A program made the translations under genes and the position numbers. A stretch of DNA of 64,000 bases, taken from positions 1 through 64,000 of the forward strand of contig CAJXTB010000028.1 of assembly GCA_913061235.1 (NCBI GenBank), in the 5' to 3' direction. Origin of the DNA: an uncultured Pseudomonadota bacterium (lineage in GTDB: Bacteria; Myxococcota_A; UBA796; GCA-2862545). The stretch's first letter is position 1; every line of letters starts with the position of its first letter. The notes under the pieces were generated by a model. It worked only from the letters and a program-made list of their open reading frames with translations, searched no databases and was not told the origin of the DNA. This document shows, in pieces, positions 19,060-31,422 of this stretch.

Positions 19060-20418
19060 ATGAGTACACCGACCCTGCATTTTCTCCCTCTCGGCGGCGC
19101 CGGCGAGATTGGCATGAATCTCAACCTGTATGGGTTCCAAAACCGTTGGTTGATGGTGGACTGTGGCGTGATGTTCGAGCGCACGGGGCCCGAAACGCAG
19201 GCGGTCTTGTTTCCGGATGCGTCCTTCATTGTCGCCCAGCGGCATCGTCTTGAAGGGCTGGTTCTGACGCATGCACACCAAGACCATATTGGGGCTGTTG
19301 TAGACCTGTGGCCCAAGCTGAAGTGCCCCGTCTACTGCACGCGATTCACCGCTGAGATGCTGCGCGAGCCACTCGCAGAGGCGGGACTGCTCGACAAGGT
19401 GCCGATTCGCCTGTTGGACGAGCGAGAATCGTGGAAGGTCGGGCCGTTCGAGCTGTCGCGCATTCCCATCACCCACAGCATTGTGGAGATGGGCGGTCTG
19501 CTCATCAAGACCTCCGCGGGTTCGGTGTTTCATACCGGCGACTTCAAGCTCGACCCGGACCCACTTGTTGGCCTACACACGGACGAAGCGGCCCTCAAGC
19601 GATTGTCGGAGCTCGACCTGCTAGCGGTGGTCAGTGACTCTACGAACGCGGACAAAGAGGGATGGACGGGGAGTGAAGGCGCTCTGGTTCCTCACCTCGA
19701 AGAGGTGATTCGGGACCGGCCTGGACGCGTGGCGGTCGCGATGTTCTCAACGAATATTGCCCGGGTTCGTAGTTGGATATTGGCTGCGCACGCTGTGGGA
19801 CGAAGCCCTGTGCTGCTCGGGCGTTCCCTGGAGAAGACCGTTCGTGCGGCGCAGGCGGCTGGCTACCTCCGAGACGTACCCGAGATTGTGTCGGCGCGTG
19901 ACTTCGGCTTGCTACCTCCGGAGAATGTGCTGCTGCTGTGTACTGGCTCGCAAGGCGAGCCGAAGGCCGCTCTGGGTCGGTTGAGCAGCGGTACGCATCG
20001 CTCGGCCTACCTAGAACCCGGCGATACAGCGGTGTTTAGCTCTCGCTGCATCCCTGGGTGCGAGGTGAGCGTGGAGCAGGTCCAGCTGCAGCTTCGGGAG
20101 ATGGGTGTGAGCGTGGTGACGGACGCCGATGCCTTCGTCCATGTGTCTGGGCACCCGTGTCGGGACGAGCTGCGTGCCCTGTATTCGTGGATTCAGGCGC
20201 GAACGGTCATTCCGGTTCATGGCACACCGAGCAAGATGAAGGCGCATGCCGAGCTCGCTCGTTCCGAGGGATTCAAGAGCCTGACGGTCAGCAATGGCGA
20301 TATTGTCCAGCTCTCCCCAGGGGAGCCGACCATTGTCCGTCGCATCCGCACCGGTCGGCATGTACGGAGAGAAGACCGGCCCCGTCGTCCCAGGCGTTCT
20401 CGTCGCTTTAGTCGATGA
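19060..20418 (+). CDS. RNase J-family metallo-beta-lactamase ribonuclease (short form)
   Basis: With the ATG at 19060 the protein has 452 residues. It shows the RNase J/beta-CASP plan: LGGAGEIGMN (11-20), zinc motif His71-x-His73-x-Asp75-His76, SVFHTGDFKLDP, and the beta-CASP end VSGHP plus VIPVHG. RNase J combines 5' exonuclease and endonuclease activities in mRNA turnover and rRNA maturation. It is about 100 residues shorter than typical RNase J and lacks the usual C-terminal domain; instead it ends in an Arg-rich tail (about 425-452) that may contact RNA. An open frame continues upstream to 18592 but overlaps the lyase gene and lacks family similarity. Its last 11 bp overlap the convergent M56 gene. 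Confidence 0.88.
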   Translation: MSTPTLHFLPLGGAGEIGMNLNLYGFQNRWLMVDCGVMFERTGPETQAVLFPDASFIVAQRHRLEGLVLTHAHQDHIGAVVDLWPKLKCPVYCTRFTAEMLREPLAEAGLLDKVPIRLLDERESWKVGPFELSRIPITHSIVEMGGLLIKTSAGSVFHTGDFKLDPDPLVGLHTDEAALKRLSELDLLAVVSDSTNADKEGWTGSEGALVPHLEEVIRDRPGRVAVAMFSTNIARVRSWILAAHAVGRSPVLLGRSLEKTVRAAQAAGYLRDVPEIVSARDFGLLPPENVLLLCTGSQGEPKAALGRLSSGTHRSAYLEPGDTAVFSSRCIPGCEVSVEQVQLQLREMGVSVVTDADAFVHVSGHPCRDELRALYSWIQARTVIPVHGTPSKMKAHAELARSEGFKSLTVSNGDIVQLSPGEPTIVRRIRTGRHVRREDRPRRPRRSRRFSR

Positions 20419-21841
20419 GCCCTTCTGCGCGAAGGATTCCGGCTGCTGCCATGACGTCGACTGCGTACGATGGGAGCGCCTCGGCTTGGACCAGGGCAAT
20501 GACGTCGCTAGTACCATGCTCAGCGATGGCCCCGCGGACTGCTCGTGAGCCCATATTGTAGGCGGCCAGGGCGAGACCCCAGTCGTTGAACTCACCGTGT
20601 AGGTCGGCAAGCAAGCGCAGGGCGGCGTCTGTGGACTTGTCGATATCGCGTCGCTCATCCACGTTTCCGTCGATGGTCAGGCCGTACGTTGTGGCGGTCT
20701 GGGGAATGAACTGCCACAGACCTGCCGTGTTCATGACCGGATTCGCCTCTGGCGTGAGGTTGCGGTAGCCCGACTCCACAAGTGGCACAGCGGCGAGGTC
20801 TTGTGGCATGCCGCGGGCAATCAGCTCGCCTCTGACGGCTTCCACGCGGCTAGTCTCGGTAAGGCCTTGGATAATCCAATTTGAGCCTGGCATGGCGGCT
20901 GCCGTCTCTCTGACAAGGTCGGCGTCAACAATGACGGATGACGCCTCAACATCCACCGATGGTGTGGGCGTTCCAGCCCAGGCGGTCGCGGCGAGCAGGC
21001 CAACGAGTAGACCCATGGCGGGGAGGGCGGTGATGCGCCGACGAGGGGTGGGGTTGAGCAGCATGTGGACTCTCCGTTGCACGAGGGTGCGGTGTGCGGC
21101 AAGGGCCGCTGAGGGAAGGGGACCGGTGCGGCGACGGGCGGCGCGAACCAGCGTGTCGGCGTACCGGACGGGGGAGCAGGTGCGGGCAATAGCGGCGTCA
21201 CAGGCCAGCTCATCCACGCGCTGAACCTGCCGAGCCAGCCACCAGCCCGCTGGATTGAGGGCGCTAGCGACGGACAGCGCGGTCCATCCCCACGCCCACA
21301 ATGGGTCCGATGTACGGTGGTGTTGCAGCTCGTGGCGCAGGGCATGAACACGGTCATCTTCGTTCGATAAGGTCTGGGAATCCAAGACAATGACGCGACG
21401 CCAGGGAAGCCACAGTGCATAGGGGGTTCCGGATGTCGACCGCCTCACTTGCACCGTGGAGTGGGTTCGCAGTGGCGCTGTCTGGCGCAGAGCGAGTCCC
21501 AGGCGAACCATGTCGACGAGTGCCCAGAGAAGCGATGCTGCGGCGGGTATCAACCACCAAGGAAGGGCCTGCCGTGCGGCTTCTGCTACGAACGGTGCCA
21601 GCGGTGCGGTGATGATGGGCGTAGCCACGCCGGATGCCCACACGCTGACCCGCTCGGTGGGCGGTGTCCATCCACCGGTCGGCTGCCATAGACTGGCCGC
21701 GAGCAACACGAGCGGCACTGCGAGTAGGCCTGCGCGAAGAATGCGCTGCTGGTGAGCGAACGGTGCCCTCAGGCGGTCGAGCGCCCAGGCTGCCACGGCG
21801 AGCACAACAACGAGCCCTTGAAGTACGAGGAAGGGGGTCAC
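20408..21841 (-). CDS. BlaR1-like M56 metallopeptidase fused to a lytic transglycosylase domain
   Basis: The 477-residue protein starts at a GTG overlapping the repressor stop (GTGA). Residues 1-290 match the M56/BlaR1 membrane metalloprotease: membrane helices at about 5-20, 37-52, 95-118 and 272-290, zinc motif His170-Glu171-x-x-His174 and a downstream Asp-Glu (210-211) in the VDELACD block. After the last helix, where BlaR1 carries a penicillin-binding sensor, this protein carries an SLT/MltD-type domain (about 310-460) with catalytic Glu356 in VESGYRN, then AGLWQFIP and the AAYNMGS motif. The outside domain would thus bind or cleave peptidoglycan glycan strands. Together with the BlaI-type repressor it forms a plausible cell-wall damage sensor. 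Confidence 0.9.
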   Translation of the reverse strand: MTPFLVLQGLVVVLAVAAWALDRLRAPFAHQQRILRAGLLAVPLVLLAASLWQPTGGWTPPTERVSVWASGVATPIITAPLAPFVAEAARQALPWWLIPAAASLLWALVDMVRLGLALRQTAPLRTHSTVQVRRSTSGTPYALWLPWRRVIVLDSQTLSNEDDRVHALRHELQHHRTSDPLWAWGWTALSVASALNPAGWWLARQVQRVDELACDAAIARTCSPVRYADTLVRAARRRTGPLPSAALAAHRTLVQRRVHMLLNPTPRRRITALPAMGLLVGLLAATAWAGTPTPSVDVEASSVIVDADLVRETAAAMPGSNWIIQGLTETSRVEAVRGELIARGMPQDLAAVPLVESGYRNLTPEANPVMNTAGLWQFIPQTATTYGLTIDGNVDERRDIDKSTDAALRLLADLHGEFNDWGLALAAYNMGSRAVRGAIAEHGTSDVIALVQAEALPSYAVDVMAAAGILRAEGLID

Positions 21842-22212
21842 TCGCTGTCTCGCGCGGTGTTGATGAGCGCCTGCAGCTCGTCGATTTCATCTGCGCTCAG
21901 AGTCTCGGACGCCACGAGGCTGCGGACCAACGACACCGGATTGCCGGAGAACAAGCGCTCCACCAAGTGCTTCACGCCGCGTTGCGCGTAGCGGTCTTCT
22001 GCGACGGCGGCGGTGTAGATGAGAGCGCGGCCGTCTTTGCTCGTGCTGGCAAATCCCTTGTCCGCCAGGACCTTGAGCACCGTTGCAATCGTAGTGTAGG
22101 CGACCTCTCGGCTAGCCGAGATGTGACGGTGAACATACCGTACCGTGCTCGGGCCGTGGCTCCACAACACGTGCATGAGTTCGAGTTCGGCTTCGGTGAG
22201 TAGCTTGGGCAT
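21838..22212 (-). CDS. BlaI/MecI/CopY-family transcriptional repressor
   Basis: The 124-residue protein shows the BlaI fold: LTEAELELMHVLWSHGPST, a winged-helix domain with SREVAYTTIATVLKVLADKGF, then a C-terminal dimerisation helix with LVASETLSADEIDELQALI. BlaI proteins repress beta-lactam-resistance genes and are inactivated by cleavage when BlaR1 is triggered. Its gene overlaps that of the M56 fusion by 4 bp, the usual blaI-blaR1 order. A perfect 10-bp inverted repeat lies 15 bp before its start, predicting autoregulation. Confidence 0.94.
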   Translation of the reverse strand: MPKLLTEAELELMHVLWSHGPSTVRYVHRHISASREVAYTTIATVLKVLADKGFASTSKDGRALIYTAAVAEDRYAQRGVKHLVERLFSGNPVSLVRSLVASETLSADEIDELQALINTARDSE

Positions 22213-23915: not shown

Positions 23916-24665
23916 ATGTCTGACACCCTCTTGGCCACTCGCGACCTGCGCCGCTCCTTCGGGCGACGTGTGGTTATTGACTCGCTCGATCTGAACGTAC
24001 CCGAGGGCAAAGTGTACGGCTTTCTCGGTCGTAATGGCTCGGGAAAAACCACTACTATTCGCTGCCTCTTGGGCATCTTGCGGCCGAACAGCGGCACGAT
24101 TCGGTACGGCGACGTCACCGTCAAGCAGACCACCACTGCTATGAAGCGCGGCATTGGATATGTCAGTCAGCACCAGCACTTCTACGACTGGATGACTTGC
24201 GAACGCATTGGTCGCTTTGTCGGAGCGTTCTACCCGACCTGGGACCATAAGGAATACCGTTCACTACTCGAGCGCTTGAAAGTGGAGCGCAAGCAGCGCG
24301 TGGGAGAGTTGTCCGGCGGCACCAAGATGAAGCTGGCCATGGCCCTCGCTCTCGCCCACAAGCCTCGGCTGCTCATTCTGGACGAGCCCACAGCCGGTGT
24401 GGACCCCGTAGCGCGTGCTGAGATCTTGGATGCCTTGCAAGATGAAGTGCGAAACCATGGTCGCACGGTGTTCTTCTCGACCCATCACCTGTTCGAGGTC
24501 GAGCAGATTGGCGACGTTGTCGGCGTGCTCACCAACGGGTCCCTGTTCTACGAAGGTGCCCTAGATGGCCTGGCTTCTGCCGTGCGTGAAGTTCGCCCAG
24601 AGCTGCCGGAACAAGCCAGTCTGGAAGCTGCATTTGTGGCGATTGCCCGGGACGTCACGCCGTGA
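23916..24665 (+). CDS. ABC transporter ATP-binding protein (ABC-2 exporter type)
   Basis: The 249-residue protein carries Walker A GRNGSGKTT (about 39-47), signature LSGGTKMKLAM (about 131-141), Walker B LLILDEPTAGVD and the switch His in STHH. It resembles the CcmA/NatA group that drives ABC-2 type exporters. The last bases overlap the next gene (GTGA), which encodes a permease, and a second permease follows with ATGA overlap, so the three proteins should be made together as one transporter: one ATPase with two different permease halves. Confidence 0.95.
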   Translation: MSDTLLATRDLRRSFGRRVVIDSLDLNVPEGKVYGFLGRNGSGKTTTIRCLLGILRPNSGTIRYGDVTVKQTTTAMKRGIGYVSQHQHFYDWMTCERIGRFVGAFYPTWDHKEYRSLLERLKVERKQRVGELSGGTKMKLAMALALAHKPRLLILDEPTAGVDPVARAEILDALQDEVRNHGRTVFFSTHHLFEVEQIGDVVGVLTNGSLFYEGALDGLASAVREVRPELPEQASLEAAFVAIARDVTP

Positions 24666-26500
24666 GAGTGCTCGCACTGCTCATCAAGGAAGCCGTTCAG
24701 CACACCGGAGGCATGCTCGGCGCCACGGTGATGATGGTTGGCATGTGGTTGATGTCGCTGTCCTTTGCCTTGAACACCGAGGCAAGCACGCTGCTGACTG
24801 CGGCAACCGGTCTTGTGTACTACGCAATGCCGCTGGCCATTGCCTACGTGCTACGCCGACTTGTCGTGCTGGAATACGACCAGCACACCCATGATTTCTT
24901 GGCGGGCCTGCCGGTCTCAGCCTTCTTGCACACAGCCCTCAAGTACGTTGTCGGCTTGACCCTTGTGTCGGTGTACGGCGTGGTTGCGGTGCTCATCACA
25001 GCCGCCATCAGTAGCCGGCAAGAGCTCATCTCAGCCCGCTTCCTGCTTCAGGTCAACCTGCAGGTTCTCGTCTACACCTTTGCCTGGTACGGGCTGACCT
25101 TTGCTGCTGCCCACCTGGGGCGCTACCGCTTTACCTTCTGGTTGCTCGCGATTGCGCTGATGCTGTCGCTTGAGCAGGTAAACCCGGACATCTACCGGGA
25201 TGTTCTCTGGCATTCAGCGCTCGCTGAGTCGCTGGACGTCACCCGTCTGGCTGTGCCGTGGAGTTCCTTGGCGCTGTCCATGACCTGGGGTGTGTTGGGC
25301 ACCGCTGTCGGAATGTGGCTCGGCAGCTGGCAACAGGGAGCGGTGTGTGCCGGCTGGTTTACGCCCATGAGCTCGCGCGAAAAGACCTTCCTCGTGTTGC
25401 TGGTTTCGGTCAGTTGGCTGTCTGTCGACTTGATTGAGTACGTGTATGTGTCGGGTGGACCTAGCTATACGCGCATGCCAGACGTGGGCCATCACAGTGT
25501 TGTGGTGCGTACAACGGCCAATCCACGCCTTGCGGCCATCGGGGCAGAGGTCGCTGAACACCTGCACCAGTTTGGGGTGGCTGTTGGGGATGAGACGTGG
25601 CCAACCATCGTGCTGGTTCCCGTTCTTCAGGATGCGGAAGAAGACGTTCACTGGCGCTCATTCGAGCATGACGAACTGGTGTTGGAGGTCGACCTCAACA
25701 ACCGCGACCATGCGTTGGTGACGGGCGTTGTGTACTGGACCCTTCAGCACCGCTCCCAGTCCATGCCGGCCATTCGCGGTGACATGGCCTGGATGGCCTA
25801 CGGGGCTGCAAGCTGGTGGGTCGGTCCAGACCCGTCGGCACCTGATCTGTACGCACAACGCGCTGGTTTCGCCCGTCTTAGTGGTGTGGACGAGCGGGCT
25901 TTGGTCGACTCGCTGCTGCTGGAACAACGCTTAGGACCGGAAGTCGCTGAGGCTGTCGGCTGGGCTGGGCTGACGCTGCTGGAGGAGAAATCTGGACGCT
26001 TGTCGGTGGAAACGCTGCTTGGCAAGGTTCTGCGTCGGCGCCGCAGTGCACGGCTGATGGAGGCGGTTCGAACGGACCTGTCGCGGCCTACGGCATGGAT
26101 TGAGCGCGAGGCCAGAACCGACATTGAGAGTTTCCGTGCGGACTGGGCACAGGCCCTGACTAGCTACCAACACCAGCAAGCGGCAACGCTCAATAAGGCA
26201 CGTCCCGAGTGGGGAACGCTGACGAGGACGGCGTCTGAAGTGGCAGATGTGGTCTTGGTCAGCGACTGGCCGGGGCGCTTTCCGAAGAACGAAGTTGAGC
26301 TGTTTTGGTTCGAGGTCCCAGCAATGCACAAGCGCCCTCTGCACTACAGCCCAGGGTCAGGCGACGACGAACCCATGGTCTTGGCGGCTCAATCCACGCC
26401 CATCTCATGGGACGCGCGAGCGCCGGTGGCTGTGACCTATGCCGTGCACAGCGACCTGCTCGACTGTGAACTGTGGTCCGGACTGCGGGTGCTGCGATGA
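24662..26500 (+). CDS. ABC-2 permease fused to a degenerate (pseudo) peptidase domain
   Basis: The GTG start at 24662 gives 612 residues. Residues about 1-265 contain six to seven membrane helices of an ABC-2 permease, with the family block EYxxxxxxFLxGLPV (about 71-85) shared with the next gene. Residues 270-612 are a soluble domain that aligns with the peptidase domain of the neighbour, but the zinc site is lost: the HELAH position reads W359-T-L-Q-H363, and the third-ligand Glu is Tyr380 in MAYGAASWW. The domain is therefore likely a binding or structural partner rather than an enzyme. It overlaps both flanking genes by 4 bp. Confidence 0.85.
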   Translation: MRVLALLIKEAVQHTGGMLGATVMMVGMWLMSLSFALNTEASTLLTAATGLVYYAMPLAIAYVLRRLVVLEYDQHTHDFLAGLPVSAFLHTALKYVVGLTLVSVYGVVAVLITAAISSRQELISARFLLQVNLQVLVYTFAWYGLTFAAAHLGRYRFTFWLLAIALMLSLEQVNPDIYRDVLWHSALAESLDVTRLAVPWSSLALSMTWGVLGTAVGMWLGSWQQGAVCAGWFTPMSSREKTFLVLLVSVSWLSVDLIEYVYVSGGPSYTRMPDVGHHSVVVRTTANPRLAAIGAEVAEHLHQFGVAVGDETWPTIVLVPVLQDAEEDVHWRSFEHDELVLEVDLNNRDHALVTGVVYWTLQHRSQSMPAIRGDMAWMAYGAASWWVGPDPSAPDLYAQRAGFARLSGVDERALVDSLLLEQRLGPEVAEAVGWAGLTLLEEKSGRLSVETLLGKVLRRRRSARLMEAVRTDLSRPTAWIEREARTDIESFRADWAQALTSYQHQQAATLNKARPEWGTLTRTASEVADVVLVSDWPGRFPKNEVELFWFEVPAMHKRPLHYSPGSGDDEPMVLAAQSTPISWDARAPVAVTYAVHSDLLDCELWSGLRVLR

Positions 26501-28281
26501 TTGCGCTGCTGCTCAAAGAGCTCGATGGTGTGCGTGCCTACATGTACGCGGTGCTGGCGTCCCTGGTCTTCGTCGCCTTCGACCATCTTCTGCCAGAGGC
26601 CGCCGCCTGGGTTCGTCCGGAAATCCTCTCTCACGGCGTTGTTGACTGGGTGTTCCTCTCTGGGCTCTTGGCCTTCTCCCTGGGCCATACGCTCGTCGCC
26701 GTCGAATACACCGAAGGACATATTGAGTTCTTGGACGGTCTACCGGTTCGCCGTTGGCAGGTGTTCTTGAGCAAGGTCCTCGCCGTCTGCGTTCCCATGA
26801 CGCTCCTGGTCGTGGGTACCGTGGCCATCAAGGCGCTCACCCTGTGGGGCCTGGGCACCCCGTTCAGCGAAGCCGCCGTAGAGGCGCTGTTCGTCTACGG
26901 CCTTCGGCTGTCGCTCGTCCTCGTCGCATTCTCAAGCCTAGGACTCGCCGCATCATGGATGGGCGGGCTTGGCTGGGGCGTGCTGTTCGTCATGCTCTTT
27001 GGCCTGCTCATCCTGTCCGTCGCCGCTCCCTCAACGCGTCCCTACGTGATTGTTGAGAGCATGCATGACATTGACTGGAACGGCTCTCGGCCAGTCCATC
27101 AGTGGGGCCCGGTGATTGTCTGGGGACTCATCAGCGCGTTCAGCGTGACGCTGTCTGGCTTGCTGTTCTTGGGGCCTGGGCGTTGGCTTGTGAAGCAAGG
27201 CAGCTGGAGCGGCGCCTTCGTCAAGTTCGGCGGACTCGGCTGTGGGGGACTGCTCTTCGTGCTCGTGCTCGCCTTGGCGTCCTTGGACCTGGTGTTCGTC
27301 AAAGCCAGCGAGCTCATGTCCCCAACAGACCGTGTCAGTACCGAGCACTTCCGCTTTCTGTACAACACCCGCGACAGTGCCGAAGCACAGGCGCTCATTG
27401 CCGAAGCCGACGCCATCAGCGACACGCTTGCCGAGCAGATGGGCAACGACAAGCCGATGTACTTGGAGATTGAGCTGCTGGGTGCTGGCCGTGCCCACGC
27501 CGGTCGCTTCCTGGGCGGAAAGATTCGCATGGCCTTGGGCGAAGACGCCCGAGACACGCTCATTCACGAGCTTGCCCACGCACATGCCTTTGCCATCTCG
27601 AGCTGGGCGGTGGAGCATCAGTTCGACCATGTTCGGTTCTTTGAAGAGGGCTTGGCGTCGTACTACGAAGGCAAGAACAGTACGTCGGACAAAGACTATC
27701 GCTGGGCCGCTGGCGTGTGGGCCACCGATCAGGCACGCTTCGACCTGCTCGTGGAAGACGGCCTGCGCGGCGAGACCCACGACAGCGACCAGGCCTATGC
27801 GCTTGGCGAACAGTTCGTGCTGGCGTTGGACCAAGAGTACGGTAGCGGCGCGGTTGCCTGTGTACTCAGGGCGCTGGGAGACGTCGGAGACGCCGATATC
27901 TCCGGTCTCAGCCTATGGGTAGAGACGTTCGGTCGCTGTGACTACGACCTCGACCGCGTAGTGGCTCGCTACGACAGCAACCTCGAAGAAGAGGCCCGCT
28001 CGCTGCCGAGTCCACTGCCGGAAATTGCTGGACGCATGGACCGCTTGGGCGACCGCTTCCTGCTCACGGACCGCAATGACACCGGGCTTGAGCTGCTGTG
28101 CCGCTACCGCGATGCCGTGGATACCGAACGCTTCCAGTGGGAAGTTCGCAATGCGGGAATCGGCGGCGTCTGCGGCATTCCAGGAACCATGTCCGGCAGC
28201 TCGTTCCAGGTGCAGTTCGGGTTCAAGCTGGACAGCGAAGCATGGCCCATCTTCTATCCTTGGACGACGACTGAGCTGTGA
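26497..28281 (+). CDS. ABC-2 permease fused to a gluzincin-type zinc metallopeptidase domain
   Basis: The ATG at 26497 overlaps the previous stop (ATGA) and gives 594 residues. Six or so membrane helices fill residues 1-270, including the EYxxxxxxFLxGLPV block (70-84). The C-terminal domain has an intact zinc site: His357-Glu358-Leu-Ala-His361 and, 23 residues on, Glu384 in FFEEGLASYYEG, the HExxH...E arrangement of gluzincins such as M1 aminopeptidases. The domain should face the periplasm, judged from the helix count. ABC permease/M1 peptidase fusions are known, but this peptidase domain is shorter than M1. The peptide substrate may be the exported cargo; this is inference. Confidence 0.87.
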   Translation: MIALLLKELDGVRAYMYAVLASLVFVAFDHLLPEAAAWVRPEILSHGVVDWVFLSGLLAFSLGHTLVAVEYTEGHIEFLDGLPVRRWQVFLSKVLAVCVPMTLLVVGTVAIKALTLWGLGTPFSEAAVEALFVYGLRLSLVLVAFSSLGLAASWMGGLGWGVLFVMLFGLLILSVAAPSTRPYVIVESMHDIDWNGSRPVHQWGPVIVWGLISAFSVTLSGLLFLGPGRWLVKQGSWSGAFVKFGGLGCGGLLFVLVLALASLDLVFVKASELMSPTDRVSTEHFRFLYNTRDSAEAQALIAEADAISDTLAEQMGNDKPMYLEIELLGAGRAHAGRFLGGKIRMALGEDARDTLIHELAHAHAFAISSWAVEHQFDHVRFFEEGLASYYEGKNSTSDKDYRWAAGVWATDQARFDLLVEDGLRGETHDSDQAYALGEQFVLALDQEYGSGAVACVLRALGDVGDADISGLSLWVETFGRCDYDLDRVVARYDSNLEEEARSLPSPLPEIAGRMDRLGDRFLLTDRNDTGLELLCRYRDAVDTERFQWEVRNAGIGGVCGIPGTMSGSSFQVQFGFKLDSEAWPIFYPWTTTEL

Positions 28282-28369
28282 GCCAGGACAAAGAACGGTT
28301 TCGGGCTGTCGGGTCGTGTAGAACGTGGTGCTTCGAACCGTCGTGTCTTGGAGAACGTGGTGGTTCGGG

Positions 28370-28594
28370 AGTTCAGAAGTCAGAAGTCAGAAGTCAGGGC
28401 AGGCTTCTTGCGAAGCCGGCGTTGATGGGATTCTTGGCGATGGACGACGACGGTGGAAGGGCTTTGCGAGCATGTCGTGCTGGCGGAAAGACTGGCGACT
28501 TGGCCTGCGGCCTGCGCGCTTGCGACACTCTCAACCGGTCCGAAACGCAGGCGCGAAGCGTCTGTTCTGACCTCTGACCTCTGACCTCTGACAT
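28370..28594. repeat. Dispersed element with heptamer-repeat inverted arms, copy 1
   Basis: The left arm is a tandem heptamer (TCAGAAG, about four units from 28372) and the right arm its near complement (TCTGACC units, 28561-28592), so the ends can pair. Inside each arm sit conserved GCAGGCTTC...GCCGGCG and GAAACGCAGGCGC blocks. A second copy lies at 59528-59710. Both copies lie between the 3' ends of convergent genes. The rest of this 369-bp intergenic stretch shows no gene. Confidence 0.8.
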
Positions 28595-28650
28595 CCATCC
28601 CGCCGAGAATCCTGCCGAATCTCACAGCTCAACAGCCCACAGCGAAGTCT

Positions 28651-29128: not shown

Positions 29129-29623
29129 CTAGTTCAGGCTCCAGATAGCCGCGTTCAGTGCGGTCGCGAAGCTCACCCAGGCCAAGTAGGGGACCATCAA
29201 GGCGCTTGCCGGGCGAGAAATCCGCCAGAACACGCCAATCGTGGCCACAATCGCACACCACAGCAGGACAATGTCCACGAGTGCCCACCCGGTCTGGCCC
29301 AAGCCAAAGAAGATGGGCGTCCACACCGCGTTCAGCACGAGCTGTCCGACCCACAGCGCCAGAGCGACACCGAGGCCCACGCGCTTCCACACCAGCCATG
29401 CTGCTGTCGCAATCATCACGTACAGCAGCGTCCAGACCGGTCCAAACAGCCAGCCCGGCGGCGCCCATGACGGCTGGTTGAGCCCCATGTACTCGCCCTG
29501 GGTGTTGTCTACGGACAGCGCCCCACCGGAGGCTGCTACGGTCACGACGACCAACAGCAGCACGAAGACGCCTACCTGTGCGGCGATTCCCGGTGTCTGA
29601 CGCGGTTCGTGACCCTCTACCAT
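29129..29623 (-). CDS. tspO: TspO/MBR family membrane protein
   Basis: The 164-residue protein has five membrane helices and the TspO signatures LNQPSWAPPGWLFGPVWTLLY (first half) and LNAVWTPIFFGLGQ, ending in FATALNAAIWSLN. TspO proteins bind porphyrins and have been linked to tetrapyrrole and oxygen or light responses. The first 7 bp overlap the 3' end of the M2 peptidase gene, indicating coupled translation; YaiI follows 28 bp later. Confidence 0.94.
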   Translation of the reverse strand: MVEGHEPRQTPGIAAQVGVFVLLLVVVTVAASGGALSVDNTQGEYMGLNQPSWAPPGWLFGPVWTLLYVMIATAAWLVWKRVGLGVALALWVGQLVLNAVWTPIFFGLGQTGWALVDIVLLWCAIVATIGVFWRISRPASALMVPYLAWVSFATALNAAIWSLN

Positions 29624-31422
29624 CCGCAGGTTCGCCCTTCATTCTGCTCTTCCAAGTATGCCTGGAGCGGCGCGAAGTACTCAACGAGTGCCCGCGCGTC
29701 CATCTGCCGGGTGCCCGTGGCTTGCTCCAGAGCATCCGGCCAAGGCTGGCTGCTTCCCATGGCCAGCATGGACTGAAGGCGGTCGCCAGCTTCGGTGCTT
29801 CCATAGACAGAGCAGGTGTGCAGCGGGCCTTCGTGGCCAGCGGTCTCACACAGCGATTCGTGCAGCTGGAACTGTAGGATGTGGGCTAGGAAGTAGCGTA
29901 GGTACGGGGTGTTTGCAGGGATGTGGTACTTCGCACCTGGATCGAAGTCCGCTTCGCTGCGCTCCATTGGGGCGCCAACGCCTTGGAACTGTTCGCGTAG
30001 CTCCCACCAGCCGGCGTTGTAGGTCTCTGCAGTGATATCGCCGTCGAACACGTCCCAGCGCCACTGGTCAATCATGCGGCCGAAGGGCAAGAAGGCGACC
30101 TTGGCCAGAGCAATGCGCATCTGCTCGTTGATGACGGCGTCTTCGGTCGACGACACGTCTTGCAGCAAGCCTTGTTGTTGCAGGTAGCTCGGGGTGATGG
30201 ACAGGGCGATTGCGTCGCCGATGGCTTCGTGGAAGCCGTCGTGGGCACCGTTCTGGAAGAGAACGGGAAGCTCGTGGTACGCGTGGAAGTAGTAGTGGTG
30301 ACCCAGCTCGTGGTGGATGGTCACGAAGTCCTCAGACGTTGGACGGATGCACATCTTCAGGCGCAGGTCGTCATCAAAGGTGAGGTCCCAGGCGCTGGCG
30401 TGGCACACCGCATCGCGGTCTTCGGGCTGGGTGAACATGGAGCGTTCCCAGAAGGTGTCGGGCAGGGCGTCTAGGCCCATGGACGTGAAGAATTGCTCGC
30501 CCGTGCGAACCATCTGTAGTGCGTCCCAGTCGGCAAGCGCGGGGGTGTAGTCGACCTCAGGTTCGGTCGGGAAGGGAGCGACGATTGGGTAGAGGTTCTC
30601 CCATGACTGGGCCCACATGTTGCCGGTGAGATGGGCGGGAATGGGACCGGTGGGGGACACGACGTCTTCGCCGTACTCCTCTACAAGCTTGGCGCGAACG
30701 TGGCAGTGCAGCTGTTCGTACAGCGGCGCCACTTGTTCCCACAGGCGGTCGACTTCCGCTTCGAGCTCGGGTGCAGGCATGTCGTAGCTGCTTCGCCACA
30801 TGTCCCCAACGTCCGCGAAGCCAAGGTCGCGTGCGCCTTCGTTGCCGAGCTCAGCGAAGCGTGTGTAGTCGCCGCGCATTTGCGGAGAGACAGTGCGCCA
30901 GCCGCTCCATGCGTCCAACAACACGGCGGGGTCGCGGCTGGTGGCCATGATGGCCGACAGGTCGCCGAGGTCCCGGCAGCCGTCGTCATTGCAGTACTCG
31001 CCTGCGCCGTAGGTTCCGTTGAGTCCGGTCTTGATGCCCGCGAGCTCGCCTCTACGGGTTGGGTCTTTGGGAGCGGGAAGGCTGGTGGCAATGCCGAGCA
31101 GATGGAGCTTGCGGGCGGTCTCGTCGGACAGGCCTTCCACGTCGCTGTACTGGCGTGATTCGTCGATGAGGGCTGTCAGAGTGGTCATGACGACCTCGCT
31201 CTGGGCGCTGGCTGCGGCCTCGTGAGCGTTGGTGATGTCGGTCTCGTAGGCCCAGTCGGCCATGGCGCCATCTACCCAAACTGTGCGAAGGGCGGCATCT
31301 GCACGCTCAACGAAGGCGTCAGCGTCTGCAGCGGTAGGGCCGGCGACGGGGGTGACGTCTGGTGTGGCGGGGATGGGCTTGGCGCACCCAGCGAGGGCGA
31401 GCAGAATGAGGACAGAGCGCAT
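29617..31422 (-). CDS. Lipoprotein of the angiotensin-converting-enzyme family (peptidase M2)
   Basis: The 601-residue protein has a lipobox (Leu-Ala-Gly-Cys13) and should be anchored in the outer or inner membrane. The catalytic site is complete: His371-Glu372-Leu-Gly-His375 and the third zinc ligand Glu399 in HDGFHEAIGD, the same 24-residue spacing as in ACE. Helical sequence throughout fits the M2 peptidyl-dipeptidase fold, and the length equals one ACE domain. Bacterial M2 enzymes remove C-terminal dipeptides. It overlaps tspO by 7 bp and follows the CE15-like gene by 33 bp. Confidence 0.94.
   Translation of the reverse strand: MRSVLILLALAGCAKPIPATPDVTPVAGPTAADADAFVERADAALRTVWVDGAMADWAYETDITNAHEAAASAQSEVVMTTLTALIDESRQYSDVEGLSDETARKLHLLGIATSLPAPKDPTRRGELAGIKTGLNGTYGAGEYCNDDGCRDLGDLSAIMATSRDPAVLLDAWSGWRTVSPQMRGDYTRFAELGNEGARDLGFADVGDMWRSSYDMPAPELEAEVDRLWEQVAPLYEQLHCHVRAKLVEEYGEDVVSPTGPIPAHLTGNMWAQSWENLYPIVAPFPTEPEVDYTPALADWDALQMVRTGEQFFTSMGLDALPDTFWERSMFTQPEDRDAVCHASAWDLTFDDDLRLKMCIRPTSEDFVTIHHELGHHYYFHAYHELPVLFQNGAHDGFHEAIGDAIALSITPSYLQQQGLLQDVSSTEDAVINEQMRIALAKVAFLPFGRMIDQWRWDVFDGDITAETYNAGWWELREQFQGVGAPMERSEADFDPGAKYHIPANTPYLRYFLAHILQFQLHESLCETAGHEGPLHTCSVYGSTEAGDRLQSMLAMGSSQPWPDALEQATGTRQMDARALVEYFAPLQAYLEEQNEGRTCGW

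Follow-up and report, generated by a model that had tools for sequence, protein, structure and literature searches.

The whole 64,000-nucleotide stretch of DNA that we analysed (the window) contains, on its forward strand, a three-gene module comprising an ABC ATPase, permease A, and permease B, joined via 4-bp overlaps. The first gene (23916..24665; ATG start at 23916, stop at 24665) encodes a 249-residue ATPase, the single NBD gene of the module and presumably a homodimer; the second (24662..26500; GTG start at 24662) encodes the 612-residue permease A; and the third (26497..28281; ATG start at 26497) encodes the 594-residue permease B, which is present in one copy in the genome. The ATPase stop and the permease A start share the sequence GTGA (24662..24665), as expected for translational coupling, and the permease A stop and the permease B start share ATGA (26497..26500). 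Each permease consists of a type V/ABC-2 membrane domain (residues 1-267 of A, 24662..25462; residues 1-275 of B, 26497..27321) followed by a soluble domain (residues 268-612 of A, 25463..26497; residues 276-594 of B, 27322..28278), so that the locus has the layout given in the original prediction, namely three overlapping genes for one ATPase and two permease-peptidase fusions. A promoter and terminator scan of the locus found nothing exceeding chance. Downstream of permease B (28281-28650), the translations contain repeated peptides, among them QKSEVRSQ and VRSQKSGQ, so that the intergenic DNA may hold short direct repeats.

The ATPase (PF00005, E = 6e-30), whose closest solved relatives are ABCA-type NBDs, has the Walker A (GRNGSGKT38), signature (LSGG132), Walker B (LLILDEP152), and H-loop (STHH188) motifs intact, as befits the cognate ATPase of a type V system. 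In the predicted models, residues 1-229 of both permeases match NosY, with a Z score of 18.6 and an rmsd of 3.2 over 223 residues for B, and a Z score of 16.9 and an rmsd of 3.3 over 219 residues for A; ABCG2 and PmtCD are also among the fold matches. Both membrane domains have the type V fold, that is, an N-terminal elbow helix and six membrane helices in a NosY/ABCG/ABCA-like arrangement, and a seventh helix connects the membrane domain to the soluble domain. In both models, two short helices, candidates for the re-entrant helices of type V systems, lie between TM5 and TM6. While Pfam ABC2_membrane_2 (PF12679) matches B above its cut-off (28.4 bits), the membrane half of A reaches no cut-off. 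The two membrane domains align with each other (hhalign, E = 9e-16), and the membrane block predicted to be common to both permeases (EYxxxxxxFLxGLPV) is real: both families conserve its E..FL.GLP core.

The placement of the soluble domains was assessed from loop charges averaged over 17 sequences. The N-terminus is richer in Lys and Arg than loops 1-2 and 3-4, as are loops 2-3, 4-5, and 6-7; loop 5-6 falls between the two sets and has no net positive charge. This pattern puts the three Lys/Arg-rich loops, together with the N-terminus, inside the cell and, consequently, the C-terminal soluble domain in the periplasm, which fits the earlier proposal that the peptidase domains face the exit side of the transporter. 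Further, two cysteines of B, Cys535 and Cys559, are present in 7/7 members of the window's clade and would be compatible with an oxidising compartment.

The soluble domain of permease B, which includes a C-terminal beta region, carries the zinc/catalytic motif H357-E-L-A-H361 (27565..27579) and the third zinc ligand, Glu384 (27646..27648), followed by Gly385. In the predicted model, which has good confidence across the active site and a full-length pTM of 0.55, His357 and His361 lie on one helix and Glu384 on the next, as in the gluzincin fold. Foldseek matched this domain to the M60 peptidases ZmpB and ZmpC, the M1 peptidases IRAP and ERAP, and the M30 peptidase lugdulysin, and fold comparison gave Z scores of ∼13 to M1, M30, and M9 enzymes. 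Thus, B has both an HExxH motif and a downstream Glu in a thermolysin-like fold, as in clan MA(E), and the full gluzincin site ascribed to the second permease is present. Another residue, Tyr434 (27796..27798), is a candidate transition-state tyrosine: it lies 76 residues after Glu358, close to the spacing of 73 between Glu242 and Tyr315 of lugdulysin (residues from the title of PDB entry 7bb9), and it is invariant in B (17/17) and never a Tyr in A. Taken together, the motif and the model predict that the soluble domain of B would be a working zinc peptidase.

Assignment of B to family M1 was considered and rejected. The GxMEN exopeptidase motif, searched as G-x-M-x-N, is absent from 17/17 B proteins; 22 residues separate His361 from Glu384, as against the HExxH-x18-E of M1; and Pfam Peptidase_M1 gave no match for the window's B at E 1 nor, with a threshold of E 0.1, for any of 12 members. 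Pfam M9 reached E = 0.014 at best, in 2 of the 12 members, and the M30, M60, and M9 folds are similar to that of B. The likeness to ABC-2/M1 fusions that had been drawn for this locus therefore holds for the fold class, while the M1-defining motifs are missing. Within the phylum, proteins related in sequence to the soluble domain of B are free, with an HExxH and what looks like a signal sequence; two long ones were typed, and both have a PD40 propeller. Their similarity to B (E as low as 3e-15) begins where its soluble domain begins and extends across the active site, and these proteins suggest the origin of the fused domain. Weak A3 matches were found in ∼50 genomes, and those that were read are mostly free HExxH proteins, not transporters. 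One further membrane fusion of the B-type peptidase domain, without an ABC signature, was seen on contig L074 (340-2550, reverse strand): a 736-residue protein with ∼7 N-terminal membrane helices, the same HExxH domain as B, and weak TPR matches.

The soluble domain of permease A, which matches no Pfam family, is related to that of B. The full-length proteins align by profile comparison with E = 4e-12, and the soluble domains alone score 59.5 (E = 2e-7 over 227 columns), against control maxima of 15.6 in 30 column shuffles, 13.2 for the reversed profile, and 12 for cross-domain comparisons. Further, predicted helices and strands occur in identical order in the two models. The model of A is of middling quality (mean pLDDT 68), pairwise identity between A and B is 22%, and against solved peptidases the A soluble domain gives a weak match to LTA4H, an M1-class enzyme (Foldseek E = 0.08). 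The homology spans the full length of the permeases, as the duplication envisaged in the original prediction implies, and unrelated folds of the two soluble domains, the first of its named refutations, were not found.

In hhalign profile-profile alignment and in three MAFFT modes, Thr354, Gly355, Tyr358, and Tyr380 of A align with His357, Glu358, His361, and Glu384 of B, respectively. The dead segment facing the HExxH of B is thus T354-G355-V-V-Y358 (25721..25735), and the position of the third ligand is taken by Tyr380 (25799..25801). The site had been read earlier as W359-T-L-Q-H363 with Tyr380 as the third ligand; those letters are present, together with Y380-G381, and the position of Tyr380 is right, but the WTLQH register is five residues off. 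This leaves the conclusion of a degenerate site unchanged. An HExxH occurs anywhere in 0/17 A proteins and the aligned positions are not conserved, so A lacks the HExxH and Glu of a gluzincin. Judged from its sequence, permease A is a full-length paralogue of B, soluble domain included, in which all catalytic residues have been lost. Across three close genome pairs, the dN/dS of the dead domain was 0.19-0.27, and in two of them it was lower than that of A's own membrane domain, the third having too few changes to weigh. The dead domain is therefore under purifying selection, which indicates that it is kept for a function other than catalysis.

Loci with the ATPase, A, and B were found in the window and in 16 further Myxococcota genomes, assembled from a 58-genome search, wider Myxococcota searches, and one match in a genome-contig scan. 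These 17 loci fall into three family-level groups plus one further MAG and, as they include two close genome pairs (G181/G489 and G205/G356), represent nearer 15 independent loci than 17. A and B were found in an identical 6 of the 58 genomes, the window's own included; presence is patchy in the window's family (6/21 genomes), and a second family has strong matches in nine genomes. In all 17 loci, A and B stand with the ATPase, mostly with 4-bp overlaps, although one locus is split over two contigs (G457) and in another (G489) the contig ends within B. Only in G012 are A and B apart, separated by three other genes (3.8 kb), and both are retained there; this insert (L010 9042-12877) comprises an aldo/keto-reductase-like gene, identified by eye, and two others. 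A genome-contig motif scan returned only known loci and L020, with patterns blind to HETAH- and HESAH-type motifs and hence not informative on absence outside Myxococcota. No relative of permease B was found in viral contigs or in plasmids.

Across these loci, His357, Glu358, His361, Arg380, Glu384, Gly385, and Tyr434 of B are invariant (17/17), so that the active site is present in every B and in no A (0/17). The asymmetry between an active and a dead site, which had been proposed from the window's DNA, is hence conserved in related genomes, and homologues with both sites intact or both absent, the second refutation named at the outset, do not occur among the 17 loci. In a maximum-likelihood tree, A and B form separate clades (100/100) with largely parallel groupings within them, which implies that the loss of the site in A predates the spread of the module. 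The distances within A and within B are correlated (r = 0.86), as is also expected from common descent alone. As far as sequence conservation can tell, both halves of the live/dead pair seem to be needed.

The neighbourhood of the module was compared for a gene that might encode a cargo. Among ORFs of at least 90 residues, no neighbour recurs across the 17 loci and, generic genes aside, flanks are shared mainly among near-identical genomes. The original prediction of a peptide cargo thus finds no support in the gene neighbourhood. Likewise, a NosD partner does not recur, and no nos genes were seen nearby. The typed flanking genes of the window encode M56-SLT, BlaI, CvfB, DUF188, and M2 proteins. 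In the M56-SLT gene (20408-22212, reverse strand), which is of BlaR1 type and overlaps a BlaI-type repressor gene, a C-terminal SLT lytic transglycosylase domain replaces the penicillin sensor. An M56-BlaI pair also adjoins the module in G011 (L011 10628-12816), which makes 2 of the 17 modules with such a pair nearby, in neither case inside the operon. Downstream, the M2 gene (29617-31422, reverse strand) encodes a full-length, angiotensin-converting-enzyme-like peptidase (727 bits to Peptidase_M2).

The architecture of the module is well supported, and we infer its substrate and activity from the evidence above. We give about an even chance to the reading in which A and B form the heterodimer of a type V ABC machine and a substrate containing a peptide is passed to the periplasmic protease B, with the pseudoenzyme A completing or positioning the chamber. 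This reading draws on the co-occurrence of A, B, and the ATPase, the 17/17 versus 0/17 pattern of active sites, the matches to NosY and to gluzincins, the selection on A, and the topology; contact between A and B is assumed from ABC stoichiometry. The lack of a linked substrate or cargo gene, the modest A model with its weak peptidase match, and the pTM of 0.55 for B weigh against it. In such a machine, A and B would together form a membrane pore or lateral cleft powered by two copies of the one ATPase, and above its exit the gluzincin-fold domain of each permease would sit in the periplasm. The substrate, which would contain a peptide and probably be hydrophobic or linked to a lipid, would be lifted or exported by ATP-driven movement out of the membrane or the cytoplasm; the soluble domains of A and B would jointly make up the periplasmic chamber that receives it, where B may cut it. 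Permease A would be the structural half, which may dock B, shape the chamber, or grip the substrate. The coupled export and trimming proposed originally is allowed by the data as one of several mechanisms, but its peptide cargo lacks genetic support.

Close behind the hand-over reading, although rather unlikely in itself, ranks mechanotransmission without transport, in which the ATPase cycle would move the membrane helices, open and close the periplasmic A/B pair, and in this way switch the peptidase of B, whose targets would be peptides or proteins of the envelope; FtsEX controls amidases in this manner, and nothing would cross the membrane. Both membrane domains find their best structural match in NosY of NosDFY, a type V system that acts together with a partner in the periplasm. 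Type VII systems are an established case of mechanotransmission, and the lack of a cargo gene linked to the module agrees with this reading. However, type V includes many true exporters, among them the matching ABCG2 and PmtCD, and the data do not separate gating from transport. A dedicated exporter of a ribosomal peptide encoded elsewhere in the genome, whose leader or end B would trim on exit, appears improbable. The best NCBIfam model for the ATPase is that of the peptide exporter PmtA, although its 188.7 bits are far below the cut-off of 350, and the fold match to PmtCD and the domain at the exit side agree with such a role; the genes for peptide exporters usually adjoin those for the precursors, however, and the 17 loci have no conserved neighbour. 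Still less probable is a self-protection or resistance pump, in which incoming peptide antibiotics would be destroyed or expelled, with B cutting at the membrane surface: the operon stands alone and is patchy in the window's family, whereas the second family, in which nine genomes match strongly, looks more like one where the module has a standing role, and no resistance context was seen. That the soluble domain of A is unrelated or independently acquired, and its pairing with B coincidental, is hardly credible, since the low identity and the lack of a Pfam match are outweighed by a profile score far over all controls, the common order of secondary structure, and the 17/17 pattern.

As in NosDFY, the membrane domains of A and B have the NosY fold and are served by one ATPase gene; unlike the NosY homodimer with its separate NosD, they are two different permeases, each with a fused peptidase-fold domain. 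Lugdulysin (M30), ZmpB/ZmpC (M60), M9 collagenase, and M1 peptidases share the fold class of the B soluble domain, and lugdulysin also its catalytic Tyr at a similar distance, but they have no transporter attached and their sequence families match B weakly or not at all. The Myxococcota HExxH-PD40 proteins are significantly similar to this domain in sequence, but each seems to be a secreted enzyme on its own, with a propeller after the peptidase domain and no ABC membrane domain. Fusions of ABC-2 permeases with M1 aminopeptidases exist and likewise join a gluzincin-class peptidase to an ABC-2 permease; B differs from them in the M1 features treated above. To our knowledge, no dead paralogous partner has been described for such fusions, and none of the nine long M1 frames inspected in relatives has a permease. 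The handing-over mechanism itself has a precedent in YbbAP-TesA, of a different ABC type and with a different enzyme, where the ABC machine is proposed to pull substrates out of the membrane and offer them to a periplasmic hydrolase at the place where two periplasmic domains meet (PMC12646458). The proposed feeding of a periplasmic hydrolase is common to both systems, while YbbAP-TesA has a type VII ABC fold, a separate esterase/thioesterase, and no pseudoenzyme pair (PMC12646458).

In summary, the module keeps its live/dead asymmetry as a conserved rule, and we found no description of the module in the literature searched; our literature search on permease-peptidase fusions likewise found nothing relevant. 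The module combines known kinds, namely a type V ABC system, a fused peptidase, and a pseudoenzyme pair, and is not a new category. More tentatively, and with some doubt, it may represent an ancient, obligate protease/pseudoprotease pair within a type V ABC system. Pump and asymmetric peptidase chamber would then be one machine, a hitherto undescribed device for extraction and cutting, with the dead sister gripping the substrate or gating it for its live counterpart. The pairing of an enzyme with a pseudoenzyme has precedents among soluble complexes; here, such pairing is fused with the recently described teamwork of ABC systems and periplasmic hydrolases in one three-gene module, whose asymmetry has been retained across deep divergence in Myxococcota. 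The module offers a small, self-contained setting in which to study the contribution of a pseudoenzyme to a membrane machine.
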